From: Deltaproteobacteria bacterium
GTDB taxonomy: Bacteria; Desulfobacterota; Binatia; HRBIN30; JACQVA1
Assembly (NCBI GenBank): GCA_016210005.1
Contig: JACQVA010000176.1
Span: 1-32,393, forward strand
DNA length: 32,393 nt
Direction of reading: 5' to 3'
Under the pieces are notes generated by a model. The model searched no databases. It had not been told where the DNA came from and saw only the letters and a list, made by a program, of their open reading frames with translations. This document shows, in pieces, positions 1,169 through 24,176 of the stretch (position 1 is its first letter; each line of letters opens with the position of its first letter). Both the position numbers and the translations under genes were made by a program.

Positions 1169-2096
1169 TTATCCGGCGCCGCTCGGCGCGGTGCACGAGT
1201 TCTTCGCCGGCTGGCGCTTTCCCGCCTTCCTGCTGTTCGCGGTGTTATTTGCCGGGGTGGGCTTCGCCGTCATGCTCGCCATTCCCGCGGGTGACACCGC
1301 CCTGGCGCAATTCGCCGAGGACTTTCGCATCTGGTGTTTCGGCGCCCAGGGGGCAACCGGAGCGGCGCGCTCGAGTTTCGTGACCGCCTTTGCACTGCAG
1401 CCGATTCTGCTGGCCGCCATCACCCTGGCGGTGTGGTGGACTCCGTTGCGCGAGGTGGCGCGGCGGCCCTGGGCATTACTACCCTGGGCAATCGCCGCGC
1501 TCGTGCTCATCGTCGCACTCGCGCTCGGGTTCACCGCCTCGCGTGAAGCCGAGGCGCCCGGGGCTGAAGAGTTCCCGGCCGAGGACTTGCGCACCGAACA
1601 GCTGGCCGCCGCCTTCGCCCTGATCAATCAGGAGGGGACCCCGACCGGCCTGGCCGACTTGCGCGGCCGCGTCGGTCTGCTGACGGCGGTGTACAGTTCG
1701 TGCGGCTACACCTGCCCGATGATTCTGGCGCAAACCAAGCGCGTGCTCGCTGCGCTCACGCCCGCCGAGCGCGCCGGCTTGACCGTGATGGCCGTCACGC
1801 TCGACCCGGAGCGTGACACCCCGGCCACGCTCGCTGAGATGGCGCAGCTGCAGAAGGTGTCGGCGCCGAGTTTCAACCTCTTGTCGGGTGAGCCGGCGAC
1901 GGTGAATCGAGTGCTGGACAGTTTCGGCTTCGCGCGTACGCGCAACCCCGACACTGGTGTGATAGATCATGCGAACCTCTTCCTCGTCCTCGACCGCGGT
2001 GGCCGCATCGCCTACCGCTTCAGCCTGGGCGAACGACAGGAGCGCTGGCTCTTGTCCGCCATCAGACTCCTCCTGCGCGAAGCCCCGCCCAGCTGA
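1149..2096 (+). CDS. SCO1/SenC copper chaperone with N-terminal three-helix membrane domain
   Basis: SCO proteins deliver copper to, or reduce, the CuA site of cytochrome oxidase subunit II. The thioredoxin-fold part (about 150-315) has the copper ligands: CGYTC with C185 and C189, and H274 in VIDHANLF. Ordinary SCO proteins have one N-terminal anchor. This one has about 135 extra residues with three hydrophobic helices (about 24-45, 77-97 and 108-129), so the SCO domain would hang on the outer face of a polytopic membrane domain. The 315-residue length is therefore long for the family. The start overlaps the previous gene by 20 bases and is preceded only by a weak GGAAG. It sits inside the oxidase cluster, consistent with an assembly role. 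Confidence 0.9.
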   Translation: MSGTSASYPAPLGAVHEFFAGWRFPAFLLFAVLFAGVGFAVMLAIPAGDTALAQFAEDFRIWCFGAQGATGAARSSFVTAFALQPILLAAITLAVWWTPLREVARRPWALLPWAIAALVLIVALALGFTASREAEAPGAEEFPAEDLRTEQLAAAFALINQEGTPTGLADLRGRVGLLTAVYSSCGYTCPMILAQTKRVLAALTPAERAGLTVMAVTLDPERDTPATLAEMAQLQKVSAPSFNLLSGEPATVNRVLDSFGFARTRNPDTGVIDHANLFLVLDRGGRIAYRFSLGERQERWLLSAIRLLLREAPPS

Positions 2097-2139
2097 GCCG
2101 CCGCCCGCGCGCGTCGCTGACGCCGGCCCCGAGCAACCG

Positions 2140-4188
2140 GTGCGGGGCGCGCGCGTGCTGCGGGCAGTCGAAGGCGTGTTCCTGCGCCTCGATCGCCGCG
2201 TCGAGACGTTGCTGCCACACCGGCTCAACCCGCTGGCCCACACCGGCGCCATCGCCTTTCTGACGCTGCTAGTGGCCACGGTCTCGGGCGTGGTCTTGCT
2301 GCTCTGGTACGTGCCGACGCTGCACTCGGCCCACTCGTCGGTGAGCGCGATGAGCCCGCTCAGCCTAGCGGGGCTGATGCGGGCGCTGCACCGCTACAGC
2401 TCCGACGCCTGCATGCTATTCACCCTCGCCCACGGCCTGCGCCTGCTGGCGGCCCGGCGCTTTGCCGGTGCGCGCTGGTTGGCTTGGGTCACGGGCGTCG
2501 GGCTGCTGGGAATACTGTGGCTGGTCGGCTGGAGCGGCTACTGGCTGGTTTGGGACGAGCGCGCGCGGCATGTGGCTGTGGGCACGGCCAAGTTGCTCGA
2601 TCTGGTACCGATCTTCGCCGATCCGCTGTCGCGCTCGTTCTTGGCCGACATCAGCGTCAACCCGCTGTTGTTCTTTATTGTGTTCTTCTTTCACATGTTG
2701 GTGCCACTGGCCGGCGCGGTAGTCCTGTGGCTGCACCTGGCGCGGGTTTCGCGCTCGCAGTGGCTGACCGCACGCTCGGTCATGGGTTGGAGCGCGGCTG
2801 CAATGCTGCTGCTGTCGGCTTTGCTGCCGGCCGACACCGGACCGGCGGCGCACATGACCGCAGCCCCCCGGCCTTTCGCCATGGACGTGTGGTACCTACT
2901 GCCGCTGTGGTTCACCGACCGCTGGTCTGGCGGCGGGCTGTGGCTGTTGACCATCGGCGCCGGGGTGTTGGCGATGAGCCTGCCATGGCTGCTGGCGCGC
3001 GGCGCCGCGGCCGTGGTCACGGTGGACCTGTCGCGCTGCAACGGCTGCACGCTGTGCGAGCAGGACTGCCCCTACGGCGCGATCAACATGGTGGCACGCA
3101 CTGACGGGCGCGCGTTTTCATCGCAGGCCGAGGTCAACCCGGCGCGCTGTGTCGGCTGCGGCATTTGCGCCGGCGCCTGTACCCCGGCCGGAATCTTCCT
3201 GCCCTCGGCGCCGCCGGACGCGGTGCGAGCGTGCATCAACGCCTGGCTGGAGAGTCCGCCGGCTGCGGGCGAGCCGCCACTGGTCGCGTTCCTGTGTGCT
3301 GAATCTGCCGCTGGTGAGCTGACGATTACGGGCAGTGGCGGCGCCTGCCGGCAGTTGCCGGGCTACCACGCCGTCGCCGTGCCGTGCGCGGGGTGGGTAC
3401 ATCCCTTGATGGCGGAGCGGGCGCTGCGCCGCGGCGCCAAAGGTGTACTAATCGTCTCGTGCGCCGGCTCCTGCCGTTATCGCGAGGGCACGCAGTGGAC
3501 CGCGCTGCGCCTGGCCAACCGCCGCAAGCCCGGGTTCCGCTCGCAGAACTTCGATCGCCGCCGCGTGCGCCTGCTGCAACTCGATTTCACCCAAACAGCG
3601 ATGCTGGCGCGGGAAGCGGCCGCGTTCCGCTCTGAGATGGAGGCTTTGCCGCACGCGGCGCCGGTGCCTACGACTGCGGCGGTAGAGCGCCGGCCTTACT
3701 TCAAGCTGACGCTCGCGGGCGCGCTGTTATCGGGACTGTGCACCGCCACGGTGGCTGGGCTCAGTGCCGTGCCCTACGCACCGCCGGCGCGCAGCGTTCC
3801 CGAACTCGTCGTCTCGTTCAAACATCCGGGCAACCGCGAGAGCGCCTGCCACAAGCCTACGGCGGCGGAATTGGAAGCGCTGCCGGTGCACATGCGCCCG
3901 GAAACGATTTGCCCGCGGCGCCGCCCGCCGGTGCGCCTACAGGTGCGCGTAGACGGCCAGCTACTGGTCGATCGTGCCTATCCGCCGCGCGGCCTCTTCG
4001 GCGATGGCAACAGCATCGCCATCGAGCACTTGAAGGTGCCGGCCGGTGTCCACGCCGTCGCTGTCGCCATCGGTGACACCGCCGGCGCGCACGAGTGGAC
4101 CTTCAACGACAGCCGCAGCATCGACTTCGGTAGCCAGGAGCGCCGCGTCTTGCTCTTCGACCGCGTGCTCGGCTTCAGCTGGCACTGA
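2140..4188 (+). CDS. Fusion protein: diheme cytochrome b, 2x[4Fe-4S] ferredoxin, MvhD-like domain, exported C-terminal domain
   Basis: Numbering is from the GTG at 2140 (682 residues). Residues about 25-280 are a cytochrome b/b6-type domain with four heme-ligand histidines in two H-X13-H pairs (H84/H98 and H185/H199). A further helix leads to two [4Fe-4S] motifs (C300, C303, C306, C310 and C337, C340, C343, C347). Residues about 380-505 resemble the MvhD/FlpD subunit, with C386, C416, and C441/C445 in SCAGSCRYREG. One transmembrane helix (about 523-540) then leads to a beta-rich domain of about 130 residues with two cysteines. The likely role is electron transfer between quinone, Fe-S centres and an unknown partner beside the oxidase. 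The reading frame is open upstream to 1969, but that would overlap SCO1 by 128 bases; GTG 2140 is the first usable start after it, and GTG 2155 is an alternative. Confidence 0.8.
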   Translation: MRGARVLRAVEGVFLRLDRRVETLLPHRLNPLAHTGAIAFLTLLVATVSGVVLLLWYVPTLHSAHSSVSAMSPLSLAGLMRALHRYSSDACMLFTLAHGLRLLAARRFAGARWLAWVTGVGLLGILWLVGWSGYWLVWDERARHVAVGTAKLLDLVPIFADPLSRSFLADISVNPLLFFIVFFFHMLVPLAGAVVLWLHLARVSRSQWLTARSVMGWSAAAMLLLSALLPADTGPAAHMTAAPRPFAMDVWYLLPLWFTDRWSGGGLWLLTIGAGVLAMSLPWLLARGAAAVVTVDLSRCNGCTLCEQDCPYGAINMVARTDGRAFSSQAEVNPARCVGCGICAGACTPAGIFLPSAPPDAVRACINAWLESPPAAGEPPLVAFLCAESAAGELTITGSGGACRQLPGYHAVAVPCAGWVHPLMAERALRRGAKGVLIVSCAGSCRYREGTQWTALRLANRRKPGFRSQNFDRRRVRLLQLDFTQTAMLAREAAAFRSEMEALPHAAPVPTTAAVERRPYFKLTLAGALLSGLCTATVAGLSAVPYAPPARSVPELVVSFKHPGNRESACHKPTAAELEALPVHMRPETICPRRRPPVRLQVRVDGQLLVDRAYPPRGLFGDGNSIAIEHLKVPAGVHAVAVAIGDTAGAHEWTFNDSRSIDFGSQERRVLLFDRVLGFSWH

Positions 4189-5368: not shown

Positions 5369-6358
5369 CTAGCGTGCTGGCAGGCGTTGTCGATGACGCT
5401 TGGAGGTGGCGAGGTGGTTGCGGGCCGGTCGCCGCCGCGCACGCGGAGTGCTCGTGCCCGCACGGCTCTCATCGCGCGCGGCCCGAATCGCCTCGATCAA
5501 CGCGAAGAGCGCCGGGGGATGCACGCCGCCGGCGCGGTAGATGATGCCCTCGGTGACCATCGCGAAGGGGTCGTTGAGCGGATTGGCCTGCAGCGCGCCG
5601 GCAGTCACTTCGGGCTCCACGATGCCGCGCGGCAGCACCGTCACGAACTGCCCCTCCAGCAGCATGGCTTTGATGAACATCATCGAGCCGGACTGTAGCA
5701 CCGGCTTGGGCGGGACCACGCGCGCCCGGCGGAACGCCAGCTTCCACAGGTCGACAATCGCCTGCGGCCGGTTCGGGAGGATCCAACGCGCCTGGCTGAG
5801 CGTGGCCATCGGCACTCCCGCCTGTTGAAACGGGTGATAGTCTGGCCGGCAGACGTGGACGAATTCCGTGGCCGTCAGCTCTTCGTGGACCAAGTCCTCC
5901 GCCTGGTGCAAGGGCGGCAGCCCGCTGACGACCGCATCGAGTGCTCCCTCGCGCACCAACGCCGTGAGCCCCTCGTAGGTGCCGTCCACGATCTCGAACG
6001 ACAGCCCCGGCTTGGAGGAAAGCAGTTTCGCCAGCACGGCGGGGAGGAAGTGAATGGCGAAATTCGCGACCCCGAGGCGCAAGTGGCCGAGGTGCCCGGC
6101 CTTGATCGCTTCGATCTCCGCCGCCGCCTGCGCTCCTTGATTGAGCAGTAACCGGGCGTGTTTGAGCAGCGCGGTGCCGTAGATCGTCGGCGAGACGCCG
6201 CGCGGGCCGCGATCGAGCAGCTGCACCCCCAACTCCGCCTCCAGGTTCTGAATGCTCTTGCTCAGCGCCGGCTGAGAGATGTGAATGGCGCTCGCAGCGC
6301 GCAGCACGTTGCCGTGCTCCGCTACCGCGAGCAGGTGGCGTACCTGCCGCATGTCCAT
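5369..6358 (-). CDS. LysR-family transcriptional regulator, divergent from the CoA-ligase/molybdoenzyme operon
   Basis: The N-terminal winged helix (about 1-62) includes HISQPALSKSIQNLEAELG. The type 2 periplasmic-binding-like effector domain begins at about residue 90 (LRLGVANFAIHFLPAVLAKL). I chose the ATG at 6358 (MDMRQ), which gives 329 residues and the usual distance to the HTH; the frame extends to an ATG at 6409, but that adds an unusual 17-residue leader. The last 35 or so residues are Arg/Thr-rich and extend beyond the normal LysR end. It faces the acyl-CoA ligase gene across about 120 bases holding inverted repeats, so it probably controls that operon in response to a pathway metabolite. 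Confidence 0.9.
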   Translation of the reverse strand: MDMRQVRHLLAVAEHGNVLRAASAIHISQPALSKSIQNLEAELGVQLLDRGPRGVSPTIYGTALLKHARLLLNQGAQAAAEIEAIKAGHLGHLRLGVANFAIHFLPAVLAKLLSSKPGLSFEIVDGTYEGLTALVREGALDAVVSGLPPLHQAEDLVHEELTATEFVHVCRPDYHPFQQAGVPMATLSQARWILPNRPQAIVDLWKLAFRRARVVPPKPVLQSGSMMFIKAMLLEGQFVTVLPRGIVEPEVTAGALQANPLNDPFAMVTEGIIYRAGGVHPPALFALIEAIRAARDESRAGTSTPRARRRPARNHLATSKRHRQRLPAR

Positions 6359-6382: not shown

Positions 6383-6416
6383 TATAGCCGCAAGGCATAG
6401 CTGTATCAAAAAATAC
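6383..6416. promoter_or_regulatory. Candidate LysR operator region with inverted repeats
   Basis: The gap between the divergent LysR and CoA-ligase genes has GTAT-N6-ATAC at 6403-6416 and an imperfect palindrome TATAGCC-GCA-AGGCATA at 6383-6399. This is the most AT-rich part of the gap. LysR regulators of catabolic operons commonly bind such paired sites. The assignment rests on position and symmetry only. Confidence 0.4.
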
Positions 6417-6480
6417 CATTGGACAGAAATAGCTGCCCGGGGCGATATGCTGCATGGATCGAACAGCGCGAGGAGAAGAC

Positions 6481-8082
6481 GTGCGAGAGCGAAACGAATT
6501 GATTCTGGCGGATCTGATCGCGGTGCGCGCCGAGCAGGCGCCCGACTTCGACGTGGTCACCTTCGACGGCGGCGGGCTGCGGCCGCATGAAGTGCGCACC
6601 TACGCCGACCTGTGGATGAACGGCAATCGCATCGCCGCCGGGCTCATCGCCAAGGGGCTGAACAAGGGTGATCGCTTCGGTTTGATGATGCGCAACCACC
6701 CGGAGTTCATCGAGACGATGGTGGCGGCGTCGCTCACCGGCGCCGTGTTCGTGCCGATCGATCCGCGCACCAAGGGCGAGAAGCTGGCGTATACGCTGCG
6801 CAACTCCGAGTGTCGCGGGATCGTCTGCGCCGACTACACCCTGGCGCAGGTGGCGGCGGTGCGAGGCGATCTGCCGAATCTCGAGTGGGTGATCGTCCTC
6901 GAGTCGGGCGAAGAACCCGACAGCATACCCACGTCCGACGTACCGGGGGCGGCGCCGTTCGCGCCGCTGATCGACACGCCGGAGCGCTACGTCACCCCGC
7001 GCGTCGACGTTCCCGGGGACCCGTTCGAGATCATCTACACGTCCGGGACGACTGGCGATCCGAAGGGCGTGGTGTGTGCCAACGGACGTTACGTCGGAGC
7101 GAGCGCCCTGGGGTATCTGATGGGCTTGCAGCCGGGCGACCGGCCATACAACGGCCTATCGTTGACCCACGGCAACGCCCAGATCGTCACGCTGGCGCCG
7201 TCGCTGGTGATGAAGCTCCGCGCCGTGTTCAGTCGCCGCTTCACCAAGTCGCGCCTGTGGGACGTCTGCCGCGAGCACGGCTGCACCGTCTTCAACCTGC
7301 TCGGCGGCATGGCCACGGCGATTTACAGCGAGCCGCCCAAGCCCAACGACGCCGACAACCCGGTGCGCATGGTGCTCAGCGGCGGCATGCCGGCGGCCTT
7401 GTGGCGCCCCTTCGAGGAGCGTTTCAACGTCAAGATCCTCGAGGCCTACGCGGCGGTCGAGGGTGGGCTCGCCATCAATCCGATCGGAGTCGGCCCGATC
7501 GGCAGTTTTGGAAAGCCACCGCCGACGCTCGAGATGAAGATCGTCGATGAGCAGGGCCACGAGTGCCCGCCCGGTGTCGTCGGCGAACTGATCTCGCGAC
7601 CCAGCACCGGTGAGCGCGTCGAGGTCGAATACTTCAAGAACAAGGAAGCCTCGCAAAAGAAGACCGCGGGCGGCTGGCTGCGCAGCGGCGACATGTGCCA
7701 TTGCGATGCCGACGGCTGGTTCTACTTCGATTTCCGCAAAGGCGGCGGCATTCGCCACAACGGCGACTTCGTCAACCCGGGCTTCGTCGAGAAGGTCATC
7801 GCGGAGCATCCGCAGGTGGATGATGTATTCGTCTACGGCGTGCCGGCGGCCTCCGGGGCCCCGGGCGAACGCGACGTGGTCGCGGCCATCGTGCCCGTCG
7901 ACGTGAAGACCTTCGATCCCACCAGTGTCTTTGTGACCTGTGTGCGAGGTCTGGAGCCGAACTTCGTTCCTTCGTACTTGCAAGTTGTCGACGAAATTCC
8001 GAAGACGGCCTCGGAGAAGCCACAGGAGCGCTTTCTGTCGGATCGTTTTTCGCCCGACGGGCCCGGAATCCATCGTCGATAG
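6481..8082 (+). CDS. Acyl-CoA synthetase (AMP-forming), CaiC-like
   Basis: The enzyme activates a carboxylic acid to its CoA thioester through an acyl-adenylate. The P-loop YTSGTTGDPKG lies at about 186-196, the adenylate-binding region includes ILEAYAAVEGG, WLRSGDMCHCDADGWFYF holds the ribose-binding Asp, and PKTASEKPQ near the C-terminus carries the catalytic lysine. The length (533 residues) is normal. AGGAG at 6471-6475, five bases before the GTG at 6481, makes that start more likely than the upstream ATG at 6454, which has no ribosome binding site. The overall pattern is closest to crotonobetaine/carnitine-CoA-ligase-like enzymes, which cover many substrates. It is first in an operon with the molybdoenzyme subunits and a thiolase, so its acid is probably a substrate or product of that enzyme. 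Confidence 0.9.
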   Translation: MRERNELILADLIAVRAEQAPDFDVVTFDGGGLRPHEVRTYADLWMNGNRIAAGLIAKGLNKGDRFGLMMRNHPEFIETMVAASLTGAVFVPIDPRTKGEKLAYTLRNSECRGIVCADYTLAQVAAVRGDLPNLEWVIVLESGEEPDSIPTSDVPGAAPFAPLIDTPERYVTPRVDVPGDPFEIIYTSGTTGDPKGVVCANGRYVGASALGYLMGLQPGDRPYNGLSLTHGNAQIVTLAPSLVMKLRAVFSRRFTKSRLWDVCREHGCTVFNLLGGMATAIYSEPPKPNDADNPVRMVLSGGMPAALWRPFEERFNVKILEAYAAVEGGLAINPIGVGPIGSFGKPPPTLEMKIVDEQGHECPPGVVGELISRPSTGERVEVEYFKNKEASQKKTAGGWLRSGDMCHCDADGWFYFDFRKGGGIRHNGDFVNPGFVEKVIAEHPQVDDVFVYGVPAASGAPGERDVVAAIVPVDVKTFDPTSVFVTCVRGLEPNFVPSYLQVVDEIPKTASEKPQERFLSDRFSPDGPGIHRR

Positions 8083-8111
8083 CGAATTGCTCGACTACTG
8101 GAGACATCCTT

Positions 8112-9176
8112 ATGACCGCTGCGAAAGAATCGTCCCGCCCCCGCCAGGTGGCCATGGTCTTTGACCTGAACAAGTGCATGGGCTGCCAGAGCTGCTCGGT
8201 CGCCTGCAAGATGCTGTGGACCCGCGGCCCGGGCGAAGCTCAGCAATGGTGGTGCACCACCAACACCATGCCCGGTCGCGGTACCCCGCGCGACTGGGAA
8301 CAGATGGGCGGCGGCTATGATGCCGATGGCAACGTGGTGCTCGGTGAGTTGCCCAGCGCCGAGGACTTCGGCGGGGGCTGGCAGTTCAACAAGGAAGAGG
8401 TCTTCTACGGCGGCAAGGGCCAGTCCGTGCACCTGACCCCGACCACCGCCGAGGGCGCGCCGCCCAACTGGGGACCCAACTGGGACGAGGACCAAGGCGC
8501 CGGCGAGTTTCCGAATGCGTACTACTTCTACCTGCCGCGCATCTGCAATCACTGCACGCGGCCGGCGTGTGTCGAGGCGTGTCCGTCCGGGGCGATGTAC
8601 AAGCGCGCGGCGGACGGCATCGTGCTGCGCGACGAGGACCGCTGCCGCGGATCGCGCCGCTGCATGCAGGCGTGTCCTTACAAGAAGATCTATTTCAACC
8701 ACGTGCGCAACGTCGCGCAGCACTGCAACCTCTGCTTCCCGCGGCTGGAGCAAGGCGTTGCACCGGCGTGCGCGCGGAACTGCCCCGGCCGTCTGATGTT
8801 CGTCGGGATGCTGGACGACACGCAGGATCCCGTCCATCGCTTGGTCTACGAGTGGAAGGTTGCGCTGCCGCTGCATCCCGAGTTCGGGACCGAGCCCAAC
8901 GTGTTCTACGTGCCGCCGCTCTCGCCCCACCGGCTGCGCGACGATCGCTCGATCGACACGGAAGCCATGCGCATCCCGCCCGCGTATCTCGAGTCGCTGT
9001 TCGGGCCGGGCGTGCACGAGGCGTTGGCGACGCTGCGGCGAGAGATCGAGCGGATGCGCACCGGCAGCAGCTCCGATCTGCTCGATACACTGATCGCCTA
9101 TCAGTGGAAGTCACTCTTTGGTCCCTTCGACAAAGAACCCGCGGTCGTGGACGCCGCCAGGGAGGAATCACGATGA
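8112..9176 (+). CDS. Iron-sulfur beta subunit of an ethylbenzene-dehydrogenase-like molybdoenzyme
   Basis: This 354-residue protein carries electrons from the molybdenum subunit through a chain of Fe-S clusters. Fifteen cysteines fall in four groups: C22/C25/C28/C32; C145/C148/C153/C157; C178/C184/C188; and C205/C208/C220/C224. Counted together they suit three [4Fe-4S] and one [3Fe-4S] cluster, as in the EbdB/DdhB/NarH type. Long segments between the clusters (PNWGPNWDEDQGAGEFPN, YYFYLPRICNHC, LPLHPEFGTEPNVFYVPPL) follow the ethylbenzene dehydrogenase beta subunit as I remember it, and the length matches the family. There is no signal peptide; such beta subunits travel with the alpha subunit when exported. 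GGAGA at 8100-8104 is its ribosome binding site. Its stop overlaps the start of the alpha gene (ATGA), implying translational coupling. Confidence 0.93.
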   Translation: MTAAKESSRPRQVAMVFDLNKCMGCQSCSVACKMLWTRGPGEAQQWWCTTNTMPGRGTPRDWEQMGGGYDADGNVVLGELPSAEDFGGGWQFNKEEVFYGGKGQSVHLTPTTAEGAPPNWGPNWDEDQGAGEFPNAYYFYLPRICNHCTRPACVEACPSGAMYKRAADGIVLRDEDRCRGSRRCMQACPYKKIYFNHVRNVAQHCNLCFPRLEQGVAPACARNCPGRLMFVGMLDDTQDPVHRLVYEWKVALPLHPEFGTEPNVFYVPPLSPHRLRDDRSIDTEAMRIPPAYLESLFGPGVHEALATLRREIERMRTGSSSDLLDTLIAYQWKSLFGPFDKEPAVVDAAREESR

Positions 9177-11965
9177 AGCGCCCGAGTCGCACCAACCCGA
9201 GCGAGGAACGCCTGCGCCAACGCATCGCACAGGAGTGGGACGAGGCCCATTTCGGAACCCATTGCGTCAACTGTGTACCCGGCGACTGCCCGGTCTACGT
9301 CCTGGTGAAGAACGGCAAGGTCGTGCGGGAAGAGGCCGCCGGCGTGCGCGAACAGGTCGAGCCCGGCGTCCCCGACATGAATCCGATGATCTGCCAGAAG
9401 GGTCTGGCGTGGAGTCTGGAGATGGAGGCTCCGGAGCGCATCAAGTATCCGCTGCGTCGCGCCGGCGAGCGCGGCGAAGGGCGCTGGGAGCGCATCTCGT
9501 GGGACGAGGCGCTGACCGAGATCGCCGATGCGATGCTCGACGCCATCGTGGAGATCGGTCCCGAGTCGATCGTGCACGAGCTGAGTCCACAGATCGCGGC
9601 CACCGGCGCCAGTTCGCGATTCATGGGCGTCCTCGGCGGGCTCGTCCTCGACGTCAACGCCACCATCAACGACTTCCACACCGGCTACATGCAGACGTTC
9701 GGAAAGTCCTCCTTCGCGCACTCCAACGACGACACCTTCCACTCCGACGTCATTGTGATCTGGCACTCGAACCCAGCGTTCACCAACATCCCGTGGTTCC
9801 ACTACATGACCGAGGCGCGTTATCGCGGGGCCGAGATCTTTCTGGTCTCCACCGACGTCAGCCCAACCCACAGCCACGTCGACTACCACATCCCGGTCCG
9901 CCACGGCACCGACGCCGCGCTGGCGTTGGCCGCCTGCCAGGTGGTCATCGCCGAGGGATTGCTCAACTGGCGGTTCGCGGCCGAACAAACCGATCTCTCG
10001 CTGCTGGTTCGCACCGATACGGGACAGTTCCTACGCCAGAGTCATCTCGAACCAAGCGGGCGTGACGACAGGTTCTTTCACGGTCATCCGGACCAGGGCG
10101 TGGTCCCGGCCGACCCCGCCAATCTGCGGCTCGACTTCGCACCCCTGGCCGAGGCAACGCTGGAGGTCGAGACCCTCGACGCGGGAAGGATTCGTGTCGA
10201 GCCGCTGTTCGCGCGGCTGCGGCGCATGCTCGACGCGCACTACACGCCCGAGCAAGCCAGCAAGATTTGCGAGGCGCACCCCGATGCCATCCGATTGCTA
10301 GCGCGCAAGGTGGCGTCGCGAACAGCTCGCCTGAACACGGGCGTGGGCATCTGCAAGTACTACCACGGCGACCTGATGAGCCGCGCCATCCTGCTGCTGT
10401 TCGCCCTGACCGGCAACTGGGGCCGAAAGGGCGCCGGCATCGGGAGCTGGTGTTCGTTCATGTTCGACGGCAGCTCGATGGCGATGGCCAAGACCGAGGC
10501 CGGCGTCGAGGCCGGACAGCTGCTGCTCGCCGGGGCGCAGATGATGCGCCAGCAACTGATGGAGCAGGACCCGACCTTGACCGGCGAGTTGGCCGACCGC
10601 GAGATCATGCGCAGCATGGGCAGGGGCATGATGGTCCCGCCGGCGTTCTACTGGTACATGCACGCCGGCTATCGCGAGCGCTGGAACAATCCCGCGTGGA
10701 ACGATCCCAGCATGCCGCGCGACTTCGACCAGTACTACCGGGAGGCAGTGAAGTCGGAGTCTTGGAGCACAGCGGCCGAGATCGCTGCCACCACGCCGCC
10801 GCGCGTGCTGCTCGAAGTCGGCGGCAACACGCTGCGGCGGACGCGCGGCGGCAAGAACGCGCTGCTGCGCAATCTCTGGCCGAAGCTCAAGAAGGTCGTG
10901 TGCGTCGACTTCCGTATGTCACAGACGGCGCTGTACGCCGACATCGTGCTACCCGCCACCCAGCACTACGAAAAGACCGGCTTCGGCATGCCGACGCCGT
11001 GGCCATTCATCCTGGCGATGTCGCATGCCGTAGTGCCGCCCTATGGAGAGTCGCGCGACGAGTGGGAATCGCTGGGTGCGTTGCTGAAGAAGATCGGCGA
11101 GCGCGCCAAGGCGCGCGGCCTCGATGGCTTCCAGCACCGCATTGCGGGCTGGCGCCGCTACGACGAGTTGTGGGACATCTTCACCTACAAGGGAGCCCTC
11201 GTTGACGGCGAGAGCGTCGCCCGCGAGATGCTGGCCGACTCGGTTGCCTCGGGCAACTTGCCTCCCGGCACCACCATCGAGACCTTCCGCAAGCAGGGTT
11301 ACAGCCGGTACAATAACTGGGCCTTCATGGCGTTGATGACGGCGAACGCATCGCCGTTCCCGCACAACGAGACGCACGCGCCGCTGCGCAACCACATCGA
11401 GCTCGGACACCCCTATCCGACGCTCACGCGGCGCGCCCAGTTCCTGATCGATCACCCGTGGTACCAGGAAGCAGGCGAAGACTTGCCCGTCCACAAGGAA
11501 CCGCCCGCGATGGGCGGTCACCATCCGTTTCGTCTCTCCGGCGGCCACTCGCGCTGGAGCATCCATGCCATGAACATGACCAACCCGTTGATGATGGAAA
11601 CGCATCGCGGTAAGCCGTTCGTGCTCATCAACGACGCCGTTGCCCGCGCCAAAGGCATCGAGGACGATGCCATGGTGCGCGTCTGGAACGACGTCGGCGA
11701 GTTCGTGGCCCCGGCTCGCACCAGCCCGGCGCAGCGCCCGGACGGTCTCACCATCTACAACGGCTTCGAGGGCTTCCTGTTCCCCGGAGGCAACGGCTCC
11801 AACGAAGTCGAAGTGGGCATGGTGAAGTGGTTGCACCTGGCGGAGTACGGTCACCTTTCCCACAGCCCCGTCGAGTGGCAGCCCGTACCCTTCGACCGCT
11901 GTATCAATGTTGACTGCGCGCGCGTCGAGGGCGATGCGGATTCCGCGAAACACGTTGCAGGTTAG
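9173..11965 (+). CDS. Molybdopterin alpha subunit, type II DMSO reductase family (ethylbenzene-dehydrogenase-like)
   Basis: This is a 930-residue catalytic subunit binding bis-molybdopterin guanine dinucleotide. The N-terminal [4Fe-4S] site is H30-C31-V-N-C34-VPGD-C39 with C74 in PMICQKG, followed by WERISWDEAL, the family signature after the cluster. D167 in ATINDFHTG is the likely aspartate molybdenum ligand of type II enzymes. HGTDAALALAACQVV and, in the C-terminal domain, FRLSGGHSRWSIH are cofactor-binding regions. Most periplasmic relatives begin with a twin-arginine signal; this protein starts with a charged, non-hydrophobic 28 residues, so a cytosolic location is inferred. The ATG at 9173 has GGAGG seven bases upstream and overlaps the beta stop. 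No gamma (heme) or delta (chaperone) gene is adjacent. Substrate is unknown; hydroxylation or dehydrogenation of an alkyl, aromatic or steroid side chain is the best guess. Confidence 0.92.
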   Translation: MKRPSRTNPSEERLRQRIAQEWDEAHFGTHCVNCVPGDCPVYVLVKNGKVVREEAAGVREQVEPGVPDMNPMICQKGLAWSLEMEAPERIKYPLRRAGERGEGRWERISWDEALTEIADAMLDAIVEIGPESIVHELSPQIAATGASSRFMGVLGGLVLDVNATINDFHTGYMQTFGKSSFAHSNDDTFHSDVIVIWHSNPAFTNIPWFHYMTEARYRGAEIFLVSTDVSPTHSHVDYHIPVRHGTDAALALAACQVVIAEGLLNWRFAAEQTDLSLLVRTDTGQFLRQSHLEPSGRDDRFFHGHPDQGVVPADPANLRLDFAPLAEATLEVETLDAGRIRVEPLFARLRRMLDAHYTPEQASKICEAHPDAIRLLARKVASRTARLNTGVGICKYYHGDLMSRAILLLFALTGNWGRKGAGIGSWCSFMFDGSSMAMAKTEAGVEAGQLLLAGAQMMRQQLMEQDPTLTGELADREIMRSMGRGMMVPPAFYWYMHAGYRERWNNPAWNDPSMPRDFDQYYREAVKSESWSTAAEIAATTPPRVLLEVGGNTLRRTRGGKNALLRNLWPKLKKVVCVDFRMSQTALYADIVLPATQHYEKTGFGMPTPWPFILAMSHAVVPPYGESRDEWESLGALLKKIGERAKARGLDGFQHRIAGWRRYDELWDIFTYKGALVDGESVAREMLADSVASGNLPPGTTIETFRKQGYSRYNNWAFMALMTANASPFPHNETHAPLRNHIELGHPYPTLTRRAQFLIDHPWYQEAGEDLPVHKEPPAMGGHHPFRLSGGHSRWSIHAMNMTNPLMMETHRGKPFVLINDAVARAKGIEDDAMVRVWNDVGEFVAPARTSPAQRPDGLTIYNGFEGFLFPGGNGSNEVEVGMVKWLHLAEYGHLSHSPVEWQPVPFDRCINVDCARVEGDADSAKHVAG

Positions 11966-11974
11966 GAGGAACCC

Positions 11975-13207
11975 ATGCGCATGAATGCGATCGTGGCCGG
12001 CGTCGGCATGAGCCGATTCGGAAAGCACGTCGACATCGGGCTCAAGGCGTTGGGCGCGGAAGTGGTTCAGGCCGCACTCGAGGATTCCGGTCTCACCGCG
12101 GCGGATATCGAAGCGGCCTACGTCGGCAACGCAATGGCCGGCATTATTACCGGGCAGGAATGCGTGCGCGGCCAGGTGATCCTGCGTTCGATCGGCATCG
12201 GCCGCATTCCCGTCATCAACGTCGAGAACGCCTGCGGCAGCGGCTCCACTGCGTTTCAGCAGGCATGCGCGATGGTCTCGACCGGTTGCTACGACGTGGT
12301 GCTCGCGGCCGGCGTGGAGAAGCTCTACCATCCCGACAAGCAGCGGACCTTCATGGCGCTGCGCGGCGGAATGGACATCGAGGAGTTGGAGGCGATGCTG
12401 GCCGTTCTGCATGCAAACGCGTCGGGCAGTGGAGCGGCATCCGAGAGCAGCGGCGGCGGTGACAAGCGTTCCGTCGCCATGGACTTCTACGCCGGCGTCG
12501 CGCGCGCCCACATGCATCAATACGGCACGACCGTGCGGCAACTTGCCGGCGTCTCCGCCAAGAATTCTTTCCACGGCAGCCTCAACCCGCGCGCCCAGTT
12601 CCGCGAAGTGTTGACCGTCGATGAGGTGCTCGCCGCACCGATGATCGACGAGCCGCTCACCCGACCGATGTGCTCGCCGATCGGCGACGGTGCCGCGGCC
12701 GCGATAGTGGTGAGCCAGCGCAAGGCGCGCGAGCTCGGTCTCGATCGCCCGGTACGCGTGGCCGCCAGCGTCCTGCATTCCGGGTGGGACCATGAGCCCG
12801 GGGAGCTTGACTCTGCCACGCTCTGCGCGAAAGAAGCCTACGAGGAGGCCGGCCTCGGGCCCGAGGATCTGGGAGCCATCGAGCTCCACGACGCTTCGGC
12901 CATCGGCGAGCTGATCGCCTACGAGTCGCTCGGTCTGTGCAAGAAAGGTGAATCGGGAAAACTGATCGACGACGGCGTCACCAAGCTCGGCGGCCGGCTG
13001 CCGGTGAACACCTCCGGCGGCCTGCTGCGCAAGGGACACCCGGTGGGGGCGACCGGCATCGCCCAGATCGTCGAGCTCACCGAGCAGCTGCAAGGCCGGT
13101 GCGGCAAGCGCCAGGTCGAGGGCGCGAAAGCCGCGTTGGCGCACAACGGCGGCGGGGTCGTGGGAAGAGAAGCAGCCTCGATGTGCGTCACAATTCTCGT
13201 CCGCTAG
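11975..13207 (+). CDS. Thiolase, SCP-x/acetyl-CoA acetyltransferase type
   Basis: This 410-residue protein has a full thiolase active site: C87 in ENACGSGS as nucleophile, H305 in ELHDASAIGEL, H355 in KGHPVGATG, and a C-terminal HNGGG with H390. The HDxxA and GHPVGATG forms place it with SCP2/SCP-x thiolases, which often cleave branched or cyclic 3-ketoacyl-CoAs. A low-complexity Ser/Gly/Ala insert (about 148-164) interrupts the loop domain. The ATG at 11975 is nine bases after the alpha subunit stop, with GGAGGA just upstream, so it belongs to the same operon. In context it would perform thiolytic cleavage of an acyl-CoA formed by the ligase and oxidised upstream, or the reverse Claisen step. 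Confidence 0.92.
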   Translation: MRMNAIVAGVGMSRFGKHVDIGLKALGAEVVQAALEDSGLTAADIEAAYVGNAMAGIITGQECVRGQVILRSIGIGRIPVINVENACGSGSTAFQQACAMVSTGCYDVVLAAGVEKLYHPDKQRTFMALRGGMDIEELEAMLAVLHANASGSGAASESSGGGDKRSVAMDFYAGVARAHMHQYGTTVRQLAGVSAKNSFHGSLNPRAQFREVLTVDEVLAAPMIDEPLTRPMCSPIGDGAAAAIVVSQRKARELGLDRPVRVAASVLHSGWDHEPGELDSATLCAKEAYEEAGLGPEDLGAIELHDASAIGELIAYESLGLCKKGESGKLIDDGVTKLGGRLPVNTSGGLLRKGHPVGATGIAQIVELTEQLQGRCGKRQVEGAKAALAHNGGGVVGREAASMCVTILVR

Positions 13208-13315
13208 AGAACCAACCAGCTCGGGAGCAGCCGGGCCGGCCGAACTGCATCCCGAGTCCGCGTCCGGAGCGTCTCGAAGCATGAGCGGGTTCTTCGACGG
13301 GCGGTTAGCTTCTTC

Positions 13316-13345
13316 TTGCCCGCGGCCGGGGAATCGGCCTAGAAT
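13316..13345 (+). promoter_or_regulatory. Candidate sigma-70-type promoter for the NtrC-type regulator
   Basis: TTGCCC at 13316-13321 and TAGAAT at 13340-13345 are separated by 18 bases. Only seven bases lie between the -10 element and the GTG at 13353, so transcription would begin at or next to the start codon, giving a leaderless mRNA. There is no Shine-Dalgarno sequence, which is consistent. Confidence 0.4.
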
Positions 13346-13352
13346 CCGGGCC

Positions 13353-14702
<1,350 letters not shown>

Positions 14703-19852: not shown

Positions 19853-20126
19853 GGCTCAGAATCCTTACGGCCTTCGCCCGCATCAAGTCCCCAGCCTCGG
19901 AGGAGCTGGGCGCTCTTCGTGGTCGCCGCCCACCAACCTAGGCTCGAACGCGGCGCGACGATAGCAGTTCGATCGCGCGGTTGAGAAGCGCCGGCAGTCG
20001 TCTCGGCAAGCCCGAGCCTGGCCGCGGGAATTCGAGCGCCAGGGCGGGTAAAATGGCCGGCTTAGGTGACTGAGGCGGCCGAACATCATAGACTGGCAAC
20101 TAATGCGTTCTTTGCAGGAGGGAGGC

Positions 20127-21899
20127 ATGGCGATCTCTAAGCTAGAGGGCGGCGCTGGTGTGCGTGCTTATGATGAGGCGGGCGTGGCGAAATCCGAGGG
20201 TGACTTGGATCGCAGAGCTGAAGTGCGGGCGCTCTCACGGCGATCATTCCTCAGTTGTCTCGGCGCCGGTGCCGCAGTTGCCACGGTCGGCGCCGCTGTG
20301 AGCGGTTGCAGCGACGGCGAGGCCAATGCGCAAGCGGTGTTGACCCCGACTCCGACGCCGACACGAACGACGACACCATCGCCGACACCGACCGCGGCCG
20401 CGGCGCGCCAGATCGCAGCGCGCGACGTGCGCAGAGAGGCGGCCGAGATTGCATTTGCTCGCCCACTGCCAAGCCATTCCACCAACGGCGACGAAGCGCG
20501 CTATCCCAACCGCATCGGCAACTACTCTAAGGGCCTGCCGCATAACAGCCTCGGTGAGGTCGATGCGGCAGCCTACGACGCCCTGCTCGCGGCCGCCGCC
20601 AGCGGCAGGCCGGCCGACTTCGAGGCCGTTCCAGTTGCCGGCACGGTGAAGCTGGCGAATCCGCAAGGCGGCTTGGCCTTCGACCTCGAAGGCCCCGACA
20701 GTCTCGCCTGCGCGCAGTCGCCGCCGCCGCGCTTCGATTCCGCGGAAATCGCCGGCGAGATGGTGGAGCTGTACTGGATGGCGCTGACCCGGGACATCAA
20801 CTTTTCCGACTACGCCACCAGTGCAGACATCGCGAGCGCCTGCGATGATCTGTCTCACCTCTCGGATTTCCGTGGCCCGACGGAAGCTGCGGAGGTAACG
20901 CCGGCCACCATCTTTCGCGGCCTAACGCCCGGTGACCTCGTCGGCCCGTTGCTGTCGCAGTTCCTGCTCAAGGACTTCTCTTACGGCTCCTTGCCGGTCA
21001 GTCAGCGGCAGCGCACGCTGGTGCCAGGTGCCGACTACCTGACCGACTTCGCCGCCTGGCTTGCAAATCAGAACGGGACGCCGCCGGCGACAGCGCTGCA
21101 GTTCGACACCACCACCCGCTATATTCGCAACCTGCGCGATCTCGCGCGCTACGTCCAAGCCGACGCGCCGTACGAAGCGTACCTCAATGCGTGCTTCATT
21201 CTCTTCGCTCTGGGCGTACCGGCCAAGGCCGGGAATAACCCGTACAAGGGCTCGCACAGTCAAGCTGGGTTTGTCAGCTTCGGCGGCCCGCACATTCTGG
21301 GGCTGATAGCGGAGGTGGCCACGCGCGCGCTGAAGGCGGTGTGGTACCAGAAGTGGTTCGTGCACCGGCGCCTGCGCCCCGAGGAGTACGCCGGCCGCGT
21401 CCACGTGCACGCAAGCAGTCAGGCCGACTATCCGATCCACGACGACGTGCTGAAGTCGAGCGCGCTGAGCCGCGTGCAAAGCCGCTACGGCACGGCGTTG
21501 CTGCCGATGGCGTATCCCGAAGGTTGCCCGGCGCATCCCGCGTACGGCGCCGGGCACAACGCCATCGCCGGCGCCGGCGTAACGATGTTGAAGGCGTGGT
21601 TTCAGGAAGACTTCGTCGTTCCGAATCCAGTGGTTCCGACCGCTGACGGGACGGCGCTGCAATCGTACTCCGGTTCGGATGCCGGGCAGCTAACCGTCGG
21701 CGGCGAGTTGAACAAGCTGGCGGGCAACATCGCGGCCGGGCGCAACGCCGGCGGCGTGCATTGGCGCAGCGACTACCTGGAGTCGCTCATCCTCGGCGAG
21801 ACGGTCGCGATCGGCATTCTCGAAGAACAGAAGCTGACGTTCAACGAAGCCCACACGTTCACCTTCACCAAGTTCGACGGCACCACGATCACGATCTAG
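20127..21899 (+). CDS. Vanadium-dependent haloperoxidase-like, Tat-exported lipoprotein
   Basis: The 590-residue protein carries a twin-arginine motif SRRSFLS (37-43), a hydrophobic stretch and a lipobox-like SGC ending at C61, then a Thr/Pro spacer (about 72-90). The vanadate-binding residues of the algal bromoperoxidase type are present: K409 and R417 in KWFVHRRLRPEE, H477 in YGAGHN, and R539 and H545 in RNAGGVHWR. In reference enzymes the acid-base histidine sits in SGH; here the serine is alanine (A475). Reaction would be peroxide-dependent halide oxidation, or phosphatase activity if the site is altered. AGGAG at 20116-20120, six bases upstream, favours ATG 20127 over ATG 20103. The 36 residues before the twin arginines are unusually long. 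The next gene follows after 14 bases. Confidence 0.87.
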   Translation: MAISKLEGGAGVRAYDEAGVAKSEGDLDRRAEVRALSRRSFLSCLGAGAAVATVGAAVSGCSDGEANAQAVLTPTPTPTRTTTPSPTPTAAAARQIAARDVRREAAEIAFARPLPSHSTNGDEARYPNRIGNYSKGLPHNSLGEVDAAAYDALLAAAASGRPADFEAVPVAGTVKLANPQGGLAFDLEGPDSLACAQSPPPRFDSAEIAGEMVELYWMALTRDINFSDYATSADIASACDDLSHLSDFRGPTEAAEVTPATIFRGLTPGDLVGPLLSQFLLKDFSYGSLPVSQRQRTLVPGADYLTDFAAWLANQNGTPPATALQFDTTTRYIRNLRDLARYVQADAPYEAYLNACFILFALGVPAKAGNNPYKGSHSQAGFVSFGGPHILGLIAEVATRALKAVWYQKWFVHRRLRPEEYAGRVHVHASSQADYPIHDDVLKSSALSRVQSRYGTALLPMAYPEGCPAHPAYGAGHNAIAGAGVTMLKAWFQEDFVVPNPVVPTADGTALQSYSGSDAGQLTVGGELNKLAGNIAAGRNAGGVHWRSDYLESLILGETVAIGILEEQKLTFNEAHTFTFTKFDGTTITI

Positions 21900-21913: not shown

Positions 21914-22441
21914 ATGCACAGCTCGGCTGGCGAGCGCCCGTTGCTGTGGCCGCTGATCGGCACGACCGTGTTCGTGCTCTTCGTCGGACCCGGGCCGGTG
22001 ATCGTGCTGGTGCCCTACTTGCTGACGGGCTGGAACTTGGCGCCCGCGTTCTTCGGCTGGGAAACCACGCGCTGGCTCGGTGTGGTGACGTGCCTGGCCG
22101 CCGCGCCGCTGCTCGCCAACGCCTTGGTGGGCTTCGTGCGCCGTGGGCAAGGCACTCCGGCACCGGTGGCGCCGCCGCGGCACCTGGTGGTGGCGGGGGT
22201 TTACCGCTACGTACGCAACCCGATGTACATCGGTGTGCTGGCGATGATCGTGGGCCAGGGCGTGTTCTTAGCCAGCGTTGTTGTGTTGCTCTACGCCGCG
22301 GGCGTAGCGCTCGCCTTTCACCTTTTCGTGGTGCTTTACGAAGAGCCGGCCTTGCGCCGTAAATTCGGCGACAACTACCGCGCCTACTGCAAACAAGTAC
22401 CGCGCTGGTTGCCGCGCTGGCGTGCCGCCGGCCTGCAATAG
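21914..22441 (+). CDS. Isoprenylcysteine carboxyl methyltransferase-like membrane protein
   Basis: This 175-residue integral membrane protein has hydrophobic helices at about 10-32, 48-68, 100-120 and 121-137. GVYRYVRNPMYIGVLAM at about 95-111 is the S-adenosylmethionine-binding signature of the ICMT/PEMT fold, and EEPALRRKFGDNYRAYCKQVPRWLPR near the end (written here only to mark E...F...Y..Y...VPRW) is its usual C-terminal tail. Bacterial members methylate lipids, thiols or unknown substrates. It follows the haloperoxidase-like gene by 14 bases with GGAG at the end of that gene, so they are probably co-transcribed; a functional link is speculative. Confidence 0.85.
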   Translation: MHSSAGERPLLWPLIGTTVFVLFVGPGPVIVLVPYLLTGWNLAPAFFGWETTRWLGVVTCLAAAPLLANALVGFVRRGQGTPAPVAPPRHLVVAGVYRYVRNPMYIGVLAMIVGQGVFLASVVVLLYAAGVALAFHLFVVLYEEPALRRKFGDNYRAYCKQVPRWLPRWRAAGLQ

Positions 22442-22453
22442 ACCTCAACCGTC

Positions 22454-22464
22454 AACCACAGAGG
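22454..22464 (+). repeat. Fragment of the AACCACAGAGG intergenic repeat
   Basis: AACCACAGAGG matches the conserved start of the repeat arms seen at 16401-16498 and the common environmental 'accacagag' repeat. It stands in a 229-base gap that otherwise shows nothing recognisable. Confidence 0.3.
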
Positions 22465-22670
22465 CGCTCTGGCGCCCGCTCGCGCATCCGCAAAGGCCGG
22501 AGCCATTCGCTGCTGGCTACCGGGCGGTCGGCTTCTCAGGGGCGAAAACGGGAGCAACCTACCGCACTCCCCTCCCCACCGGGCGGTTGCCTTACCGTGC
22601 GCCGTCGACTAGAGCCGTGGCGCTTGCAGGCGCCCGACGCCCTGCGGACCACGAGACACGAGAGCTACCA

Positions 22671-24176
22671 ATGGCTGATGACCGGACTCCGATTCTGATT
22701 GGTGCTGGGCAGTTGACCCAGCGCGACGTGGCCCCCACCGAGGCGAAGCACCCGGTGGCAATGATGGCTGAATGCGCTGGGCGGGCGGCGGCTGACGCGG
22801 GTCTGCAAGCGCGCCGGCTGGCGGAGGTGGATCGCTTGGTGGTGGTGAACTTGTTGAGTTGCTCGTACCCAAACGCGCCGCGATTTCTAGCCGAAGAAAT
22901 CGGCGCGCAGCCCGCTGGTGAGCTGTACACGACCATCGGCGGCAACACCCCGCAGTTGCAGGTCAATGAAACCGCCGCGTTGATCGCCGCCGGCGAAGTG
23001 CGTTTGGCGCTACTGGCTGGGGCCGAAGCGGTCTACTCGGTCTCACGCGCGCGCAAAGCCGGAGTGGAACTGAGCTGGCCATCCGGCCCCGCCGGCAGCC
23101 CGGTGGTGACGGGCGACGACCGCCAGGGCATGAGCCACGGCGAAATGACCCACGGCATGTTGCTGCCGGCCTCGGTCTACCCTTTGTTCGAGAACGCCCT
23201 GCGGGTGCACTACGGCCTCGATCTGGCCGGGCAGCAACGTCAACTCGGCGAGCTCTACAGCCGCTTCTCGGCGGTGGCGGCCGAGAATCGCTACGCCTGG
23301 TTCCAGCAGGCGCGCACGCCCGCGGAAATCACCACCGCCAGCGCCCAGAACCGCATGATCGGGTTTCCCTACCTCAAGTTCATGAACGCGATCATCGACG
23401 TCGATCAGGCCGCCGCGCTGTTGCTGACCTCGGTCGGGACCGCGCGCGAGTTGGGCGTTGATCCGTCGCGTTGGGTCTACCTGTGGGGCTGTGCCGACGC
23501 GCACGATCTCTGGTTCGTCTCGCAGCGCCAGAACTATCACAGCTCGCCGGCCATCCGCATGGTCGGCCGGAAGGCACTGGCGATGGCCGGCCTCGGCATC
23601 GACAAGCTCGATTACTTCGATCTTTACAGCTGCTTCCCCTGTGCGGTCGAGATCGGCCGCGACATGCTGGGGATTACCCTCGGCGATCCGCGCTCACTGA
23701 CGGTGACCGGCGGCCTCGCTTACCACGGCGGGCCGGGCAACAACTACACCATGCACGCCATCGCTACGATGATGGACAAGTTGCGTGCGAAGCCGGGAGC
23801 CACGGGCTTGGTCACCGGCCTGGGCTGGTATTTGACCAAGCACTCCGCCGGAGTGTACAGCGCCGCACCCAAGGCCCGGCCGTTCGTGCGTGAAGACCCG
23901 AAGTCGTATCAGGCGGCGCTCGATCGTGAGCCTTATCCGGAACTCGTGGACGAGCCCAGCGGGCGCGGCGTGATCGAGACTTACACCGTGACCCACGACC
24001 GCGACGGCACCCCGAGCCGGGGCATCGTCATCGGCCGGCTGGACGACGGCCGGCGCTTCCTGGCCAATACCCCCGACGACCGCGCAACACTCGAAAGCCT
24101 GATGGCGCACGAAGCAATCGGCGCTCGCGGCACGGTGTCGTCACAGCATGCGTTCAACCGCTTCGAGCCGGCGTGA
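22671..24176 (+). CDS. Thiolase-like protein, TLP1 type (acetyl-CoA acetyltransferase family)
   Basis: This 501-residue protein has a thiolase fold in its first 370 or so residues plus an extra C-terminal domain of about 110 residues (IETYTVTHDRDGTPSRGIVI), a layout matching mycobacterial thiolase-like protein type 1. The usual nucleophile motif (N..C.SG) is replaced by TTIGGNTPQLQ at about 88-98, so no cysteine occupies that position. The distal motif is GGLAYHGGPGNNYTMHA rather than GHPxGxTG with a CxGGG. YSCFPCAVEI carries two cysteines near where SCP2 thiolases have HDxF. Ordinary thiolysis is therefore unlikely; acyl-CoA binding or another acyl transfer is possible. I chose ATG 22671 because the protein then begins MADDRTPILIGAGQ, the expected first strand. 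Confidence 0.88.
   Translation: MADDRTPILIGAGQLTQRDVAPTEAKHPVAMMAECAGRAAADAGLQARRLAEVDRLVVVNLLSCSYPNAPRFLAEEIGAQPAGELYTTIGGNTPQLQVNETAALIAAGEVRLALLAGAEAVYSVSRARKAGVELSWPSGPAGSPVVTGDDRQGMSHGEMTHGMLLPASVYPLFENALRVHYGLDLAGQQRQLGELYSRFSAVAAENRYAWFQQARTPAEITTASAQNRMIGFPYLKFMNAIIDVDQAAALLLTSVGTARELGVDPSRWVYLWGCADAHDLWFVSQRQNYHSSPAIRMVGRKALAMAGLGIDKLDYFDLYSCFPCAVEIGRDMLGITLGDPRSLTVTGGLAYHGGPGNNYTMHAIATMMDKLRAKPGATGLVTGLGWYLTKHSAGVYSAAPKARPFVREDPKSYQAALDREPYPELVDEPSGRGVIETYTVTHDRDGTPSRGIVIGRLDDGRRFLANTPDDRATLESLMAHEAIGARGTVSSQHAFNRFEPA

Follow-up and report, generated by a model that had tools for sequence, protein, structure and literature searches.

An ethylbenzene dehydrogenase-like molybdenum enzyme without export signal in an acyl-CoA operon of a Binatia genome

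What does a molybdenum (Mo) enzyme of the ethylbenzene dehydrogenase (EbDH) kind do when its genes lie between those of an acyl-coenzyme A (CoA) ligase and a thiolase? This question is raised by contig JACQVA010000176.1 (assembly GCA_016210005.1) of a Deltaproteobacteria bacterium belonging to the Binatia (Desulfobacterota). The complete contig of 32,393 bases was analysed and is called the window from here on. The genome (5.9 Mb in 268 contigs, 97.6% complete, 4.5% contaminated) is most likely metagenome-assembled. Type II enzymes of the dimethyl sulfoxide (DMSO) reductase family, namely EbdA, CmdA, S25dA, SerA, ClrA, DdhA and PcrA, are tabulated as periplasmic in PMC10100899, and the substrates of the characterised alkyl hydroxylases among them, EbdA, CmdA and S25dA, are free hydrocarbons or sterols. 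For the system described here we propose, with about an even chance of being right, a cytoplasmic, water-using alpha-beta Mo alkyl hydroxylase that serves a CoA-thioester, thiolytic degradation route. Below, L numbers denote sequence contexts (loci) and G numbers genomes, while P0001 and P0004 are the alpha subunit and the thiolase of the operon.

A preliminary description of this DNA had claimed an operon in the order ligase, beta, alpha, thiolase with a divergent LysR gene, and this was borne out: all genes are present (Table 1), with intact domains and catalytic motifs. The four operon genes share one strand and are tightly packed, with a gap of 29 bp between ligase and beta, an overlap of 4 bp between beta and alpha and a gap of 9 bp between alpha and thiolase; 122 bp separate the LysR gene from the ligase start. 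The four-gene operon with its EbdBA-like enzyme is real and far beyond chance. For the ligase, whose open reading frame (ORF) extends over 6454-8082, the GTG start codon at 6481 is favoured over the opening of the ORF at 6454, as the 91% identical orthologue in L242 starts with MRERNEL at the position of this GTG. The window gave no match to Rfam families and no tRNA.

Table 1. Positions of the operon, its regulator and adjoining features in the window
Feature	Positions	Strand	Remarks
LysR-family regulator	5369..6358	-	HTH_1 + LysR_substrate domains; divergent from operon
Conserved intergenic element, candidate LysR-controlled promoter/operator	6404..6431	.	TATC-A-rich-TTGGACAG-AATA; putative function
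AMP-forming acyl-CoA ligase	6481..8082	+	PF00501 3e-61, PF13193; GTG start
Beta subunit, iron-sulfur protein	8112..9176	+	TIGR03478 473.7 bits; four clusters expected
Alpha subunit, Mo-bis-MGD catalytic protein, DMSO-reductase type II	9173..11965	+	TIGR03479, 2IVF match; without twin-arginine signal
SCP2-type thiolase	11975..13207	+	Thiolase_N + Thiolase_C_1
NtrC-type response regulator, next gene 3' of thiolase	13281-14702		domain search

The best solved relative of alpha is EbdA of Aromatoleum aromaticum (2IVF, E 7e-187). An AlphaFold2 model of alpha (mean predicted local distance difference test score 87, predicted template modelling score 0.90) superimposes on 2IVF with a template modelling score of 0.94, a Z score of 52.4 and a root-mean-square deviation of 2.0 over 902 aligned residues at 36% identity. 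Asp167 and Lys395, which align with EbdA Asp223 and Lys450, are kept in 22/22 aligned alphas, ClrA included; going by the residue roles in EbdA, we take Asp167 to be the Mo ligand and Lys395 its partner. The iron-sulfur (Fe-S) cluster site His30/Cys34/Cys39/Cys74 is conserved as well. Beta has 16 cysteines, 15 of them in four cluster-like motifs, and probably carries four Fe-S clusters; its third motif is one cysteine short, which we presume to mark the expected [3Fe-4S] site. The alpha fold, the Asp ligand, the Lys partner, the His/Cys site and the Fe-S beta subunit are shared with EbdABC, and together with the profile match of beta they uphold the earlier assignment as an EbdBA-like enzyme. 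The operon differs from EbdABC in having a ligase and a thiolase and no twin-arginine translocation (TAT) signal, gamma subunit or chaperone, and in having Pro139 at the position of EbdA His192. According to passages of PMC6153880, steroid C25 dehydrogenase (S25DH) possesses the Asp-Lys pair and likewise lacks an EbdA-type active-site His.

Could the enzyme be a reductase or dehydroxylase instead? Type II includes perchlorate, chlorate, selenate and nitrate reductases, as passages of PMC10100899 tell, and the Asp-Lys pair occurs in ClrA, but in sequence alpha stands far nearer to EbdA than to PcrA, ClrA or NarG. The same holds for structure, where solved: after EbdA follow PcrA (Z 46.8), nitrite oxidoreductase (40.8) and NarG (~36). 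With an acyl-CoA neighbourhood speaking against it too, we consider this explanation the least probable of those weighed here. A PadB-like phenylacetyl-CoA oxidoreductase was also discarded, there being no PadB-type model among the 25 NCBIfam matches listed (of 26), a comparison that did not include PadB itself.

The position of alpha in the family was examined by two trees. In a FastTree tree of 107 rows P0001 falls into a 55-row clade with support 100 from which EbdA is excluded, and an IQ-TREE mixture-model tree of 48 rows yielded an agreeing clade of 23 rows with support 99, again with EbdA outside. EbdA lies inside the larger clades of P0001 (63 rows in the 107-row tree, 30 rows in the 48-row tree) and was flagged as a long branch in the 107-row tree. 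The phylogenetic check proposed in the preliminary description was thus answered in part: alpha stands outside the clade of EbdA, the sole characterised hydroxylase placed, S25dA and CmdA not being among the rows. A search with EbdA as query for S25dA or CmdA in 399 genomes of a betaproteobacterial order found none at E <= 1e-150, a result that is uninformative as the search had no positive control and scored at most two candidates per genome.

Apparently the alpha clade is an undescribed branch. The smaller group around P0001 consists of L087 (from a Meg19 metagenome-assembled genome (MAG), 71% identity), G012 and G023 (65%), L088 and L089 (Actinomycetota, 59%) and L146; G050 holds another 65% orthologue on a cut contig. 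Clade members lacking a TAT signal come from Binatia, Chloroflexota, Actinomycetota, Acidobacteriota, Myxococcota and Gammaproteobacteria MAGs. Another alpha branch, distinct from this clade and likewise lacking a TAT motif, was observed in one family (G028, G035, G042; L052, L054, L065, L242) and forms a long branch in the tree.

The N-terminal region of alpha has no twin-arginine motif. Reading upstream in frame, the first RR motif appears 78 residues away, inside the beta gene, and is not accompanied by a hydrophobic stretch. A strict TAT motif test was positive for 1/55 sequences (a doubtful case) in the alpha clade and for 39/51 outside it; EbdA is not counted here, the clade member L090_3_2609 has a cut N-terminus, and P0001 was judged separately by reading its start. 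A heme-b gamma gene (EB_dh) was not found in the operon, though one could be hidden in an assembly gap. Only two EB_dh gamma genes occur in the genome; the contig of each also carries a type II alpha that is distant, longer (1154 and 1174 aa) and equipped with a TAT signal. Because export signal and gamma subunit were tested for and not found, the operon, which would work like EbDH and S25DH, is not filed as a member of either. The preliminary description had remarked neither on these two absences nor on the multiplication of alphas in the genome. Judged from the missing export signal, the alpha branch would work in the cytoplasm.

The outer genes of the operon point to CoA chemistry. The ligase has the P-loop YTSGTTGDPKG and the motif IPKTASEK, and relatives with 54-91% identity occur in 16/58 genomes (own included). 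The thiolase matches BbsB (7PXP) with 237 bits, SCP2-thiolase type-1 with 220 bits and the lipid-transfer protein 6OK1 with 103 bits, and it also aligns with SCP2-thiolase 6HSJ; its scores stay under the curated NCBIfam cut-offs. Cys87, His305 and His355 are present and are taken by us to be the catalytic residues. P0004 thus has its domains and catalytic Cys/His in common with SCP2-type thiolases, BbsB and PRK08256-like lipid-transfer proteins. A retro-aldolase in place of a thiolase is less likely given the lower score to 6OK1, presumably an Ltp2 aldolase. The operon differs from BbsB-type systems in the response regulator gene directly downstream of P0004; no search was aimed at a DUF35 or BbsA partner.

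In relatives, the ligase and thiolase genes are accompanied by those of an acyl-CoA dehydrogenase and a nitroreductase-family protein. We fetched 44 contexts by ligase or thiolase match, of which three without a thiolase of >=60% identity were dropped. Among the 41 thiolase loci counted, same-strand adjacent genes encode the ligase in 28, acyl-CoA dehydrogenase in 31, a nitroreductase-family protein in 28 and all three in 18. The four-gene module acyl-CoA dehydrogenase / nitroreductase-family / SCP2-type thiolase / CoA ligase was seen in L244, L245, L246, L249, L254-L257, L260, L261 and others. An alpha gene lies within 10 kb of 8/41 thiolase loci. With L277 and L279 dropped, whose contigs had been fetched for their alpha, 6/39 loci are alpha-linked against ~2 expected (P 0.008-0.016, for an assumed alpha density of 15 per 4.5 Mb or 23 per 5.9 Mb); other loci are in genomes reached via alpha, on different contigs. 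At E <= 1e-100 for each, 14 of the 58 relatives including the own genome have both ligase and alpha, 5 alpha only, 2 ligase only and 37 neither, and class-wide the thiolase (E <= 1e-160) was detected in 19/148 genomes and alpha (E <= 1e-285) in 5/148. By sequence comparison, ligase and thiolase appear as a conserved catabolic pair, whose link with such alphas is seen in other genomes too. Other molybdopterin oxidoreductases were noticed near ligase and acyl-CoA dehydrogenase genes, one PhsA-like (L247:12429-14636) and one formate-dehydrogenase/acetylene-hydratase-like (L248:4719-6962).

These data also bear on whether beta and alpha merely became inserted between the ligase and thiolase of an acyl-CoA module with which they share no pathway. 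In many genomes the stretch fetched contains the complete module and no Mo genes, and G012 and G023 have LysR, beta and alpha without ligase and thiolase; the tight spacing with its 4 bp overlap, the frequency of alpha near the module above expectation and the co-occurrence in 14/58 genomes argue for a common function, and we regard such loose neighbourhood as quite unlikely.

Gene orders in relatives were compared in 160 other contexts, some of which overlap (e.g. L120/L277, L129/L279, L073/L245) and many of which are cut by contig ends, among them L087, L088, L089 and L069 near alpha. A ligase gene with beta directly behind it is seen in the window only, one with alpha directly behind it in L242 and L245. 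Alpha and thiolase adjoin each other in the window, in L146 and in L129 (= L279, thiolase first). In G012 and G023 the LysR gene (75 and 74% identity) is divergent from beta-alpha, and an acyl-CoA dehydrogenase gene is next in G012. Alpha of G050 (L069) is accompanied by a Zn-alcohol dehydrogenase and a ligase of 84% identity, while L088 contains alpha, an acetoacetate-decarboxylase-like gene and an acyl-CoA dehydrogenase. The Actinomycetes locus L146 has a row of alpha, thiolase (46%), ligase (36%), nitroreductase-family and acyl-CoA dehydrogenase genes. In G028, LysR (79%) is divergent from the ligase (91%), a partial Zn-alcohol dehydrogenase (~160/355 residues match) and an alpha without TAT signal belong to the same locus, and thiolase (83%) and acyl-CoA dehydrogenase genes follow behind LysR.

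In the route we favour, the ligase would load a carboxylic acid onto CoA, probably a bulky or branched one of terpenoid-, steroid- or alkyl-aromatic-like structure. The Mo enzyme would then introduce a hydroxyl group from water at an unactivated chain carbon, while two electrons would pass along the Fe-S chain of beta to an acceptor in the cytoplasm or membrane. The ketone could come from an alcohol dehydrogenase whose gene lies elsewhere, the SCP2-type thiolase would cleave the beta-keto thioester, and LysR would turn the operon on. A cytoplasmic side-chain hydroxylase leading to a beta-keto thioester that is then cut would fit both the lack of an export signal and the linkage of alpha with genes for CoA ligase, acyl-CoA dehydrogenase, alcohol dehydrogenase and thiolase. 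Beta-alpha lie between ligase and thiolase here, while the neighbours of this pair in relatives are genes for acyl-CoA dehydrogenase and the nitroreductase-family protein, an arrangement which suggests that the Mo enzyme may replace or assist these proteins.

Several results weigh against this route. The exact four-gene order recurs in 0/160 of the other contexts, an outcome that the preliminary description had itself named as a refutation. The nearest complete alphas (G012 and G023) have no adjoining ligase or thiolase, and in L087 the end of beta and alpha are followed by a Coq4-like gene. As the ligase and thiolase of G028 stand with an alpha of the other branch (36% identity), the module there seems to have been re-paired with a different Mo enzyme. 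Both subunits fall short of the cut-offs of the curated type II models: alpha reached 746.5 bits with TIGR03479 (cut-off 984.75) and 668.7 bits with the EbdA model NF042978 (cut-off 2000), and beta came slightly under the cut-off of 480.7. The Asp-Lys pair, being also present in ClrA, does not separate hydroxylase from reductase. The loss of the export signal is not unique to the clade, as 12 rows outside it also have no TAT motif, and its absence would be only an indirect pointer to location. A CoA ester in the active site would be a conjecture, and no electron acceptor was identified.

The same genes could also serve a route of the ethylbenzene type, in which a free hydrocarbon is hydroxylated and oxidised to a ketone, a carboxylase encoded elsewhere yields a beta-keto acid, and the ligase and thiolase of the operon then act like benzoylacetate-CoA ligase and beta-ketothiolase. 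EbdA is the closest solved relative of alpha, a Zn-alcohol dehydrogenase adjoins alpha and ligase in L069, and EbDH, Ped, ApcABCDE, Bal and thiolases work together in this manner in Aromatoleum, as described in passages of PMC4729919. However, phenylethanol-type dehydrogenase and ketone carboxylase genes were not noticed in the window, where not every gene was family-searched, the genome not being searched for them. EbDH is exported, apparently unlike the alpha clade here, and the ligase-thiolase pair mostly occurs with an acyl-CoA dehydrogenase (31/41 thiolase loci), for which a beta-keto acid would have no need. We consider this route unlikely. The Aromatoleum system (ebd-ped and apc-bal) differs further in gene order, in its exported enzyme, in its carboxylase and alcohol dehydrogenase genes and in having two-component regulators instead of LysR (passages of PMC4729919 and PMC10100899). 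It does unite EbDH, CoA ligase and thiolase in one pathway (PMC4729919), which makes the gene set less singular than the preliminary description had it. A cytoplasmic EbdA-like enzyme in an acyl-CoA operon was not found described in the open-licence literature, judged mostly by titles and abstract openings, and a text search of the Binatota overview PMC8262859 for six terms, among them molybd-, ethylbenzene, steroid and DMSO reductase, found no passage.

Beyond the single operon, a more general but rather doubtful idea is that a cross-phylum cytoplasmic type II branch uses water to hydroxylate the acyl chains of CoA thioesters. This would be an oxygen-independent alternative to acyl-CoA dehydrogenase/hydratase, or a bypass at branch points, that feeds a dedicated SCP2-type thiolase. 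If true, type II hydroxylation chemistry would reach the cytoplasm, and perhaps CoA thioesters, in several phyla, which would help to explain what a single genome does with so many alphas. The operon and its regulator are a concrete system for testing cytoplasmic hydroxylation.

The genome encodes 23 near full-length EbdA-like alphas, 7 without and 16 with TAT signal. All five full-length betas adjoin an alpha without TAT signal, and a sixth is a mere tail at the end of contig C52, beside three TAT alphas. An adjacent beta was found at 5/6 loci without TAT signal versus 1/13 TAT loci, the latter being the cut tail (Fisher 0.003). The distribution of acyl-CoA genes was identical, with 5/6 versus 1/13 loci, the latter with one acyl-CoA dehydrogenase (Fisher 0.003); this first count used some probes taken from the genome's own no-TAT loci, and the counts were unchanged with probes solely from other genomes. 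Relatives are not independent, so that these Fisher values are descriptive, and flank lengths vary among loci (TAT loci L266, L267 and L270 have < 10 kb). The 13 TAT loci cover 15/16 TAT alphas, the sixteenth lying in the no-TAT locus L079. Most TAT alphas of the genome were observed without partner genes, and no EB_dh gamma stands beside the loci read. Because most TAT alphas have no partner genes, subunits may be shared among the alphas of the genome.

Such a surplus of alphas is reminiscent of Sterolibacterium denitrificans, and the Mo enzyme might be an isoenzyme of steroid C25/C26 dehydrogenases in an oxygen-free sterol side-chain route with ligase and thiolase in beta-oxidation. SCP2 thiolases act on sterol and branched chains, and the ligase matches the steroid-22-oyl-CoA synthetase model, with 168.7 bits at a cut-off of 900. 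The S. denitrificans enzymes are class II DMSO reductase relatives with eight alphas and fewer betas and without the EbdA-type His (PMC6016249, PMC6153880). In contrast, S25DH and S26DH have TAT signals (PMC7411048) and S25DH a heme gamma (PMC6016249), neither of which was found with the operon, and we judge this explanation, in which these enzymes were set apart by their descriptions, to be very unlikely. p-Cymene dehydrogenase CmdAB, compared by description too, is a hydroxylating type II enzyme like EbdA and S25dA and is listed as periplasmic (PMC10100899).

Two other kinds of gene neighbourhood were observed among the alphas without TAT signal. In L081 (G000:C216:37000-55400) such an alpha-beta pair lies near genes for an APH-type kinase, penicillin amidase, SDR, sulfotransferase, MaoC and thiolase. 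This set brings to mind the cascade of hydroxylation, phosphorylation and elimination at sterol side chains outlined in passages of PMC7411048 and PMC8449060, the kinase of which is said there to have little resemblance to known phosphotransferases. Genes of the LGT family (prolipoprotein diacylglyceryl transferase) adjoin such alphas at L078:11824-12810 and L076:9738-10913.

Homologues of the LysR regulator with 74-79% identity occur in G012, G023 and G028; they diverge from beta-alpha in the first two and from the ligase in the third. The intergenic element is recognisable by eye, without statistics, in 4/4 LysR-linked regions read, i.e. the window, G028 (L242) and G023 and G012 (L067, L068), and may be a target of LysR control. 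A T-N11-A scan for a LysR box in the window gave a single 4-of-6 match, outside the conserved element.

Elsewhere in the window, 1969-4188 encodes a fused cytochrome b6-like, ferredoxin and HdrA/VhuD-like protein (NCBIfam below cut-off), possibly an electron-transfer membrane protein. As a partner of the Mo enzyme this cytochrome b / ferredoxin protein was rejected, with only one weak homologue (27%, L094) among the 100 contexts L067-L166. ORF 377-982 joins a LysR-type helix-turn-helix (~60 aa, 45% to the window LysR) to what resembles the C-terminal part of a cytochrome oxidase subunit I; it may be a pseudogene or reflect a chimeric junction close to the end of the contig. The gene at 20103-21899 has a twin-arginine-like start and no NCBIfam match, and its histidine motif seems to us to resemble that of vanadium haloperoxidases. 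A thiolase-like protein with a TLP1 additional C-terminal domain (PRK08257 type) is encoded at 22422-24176.

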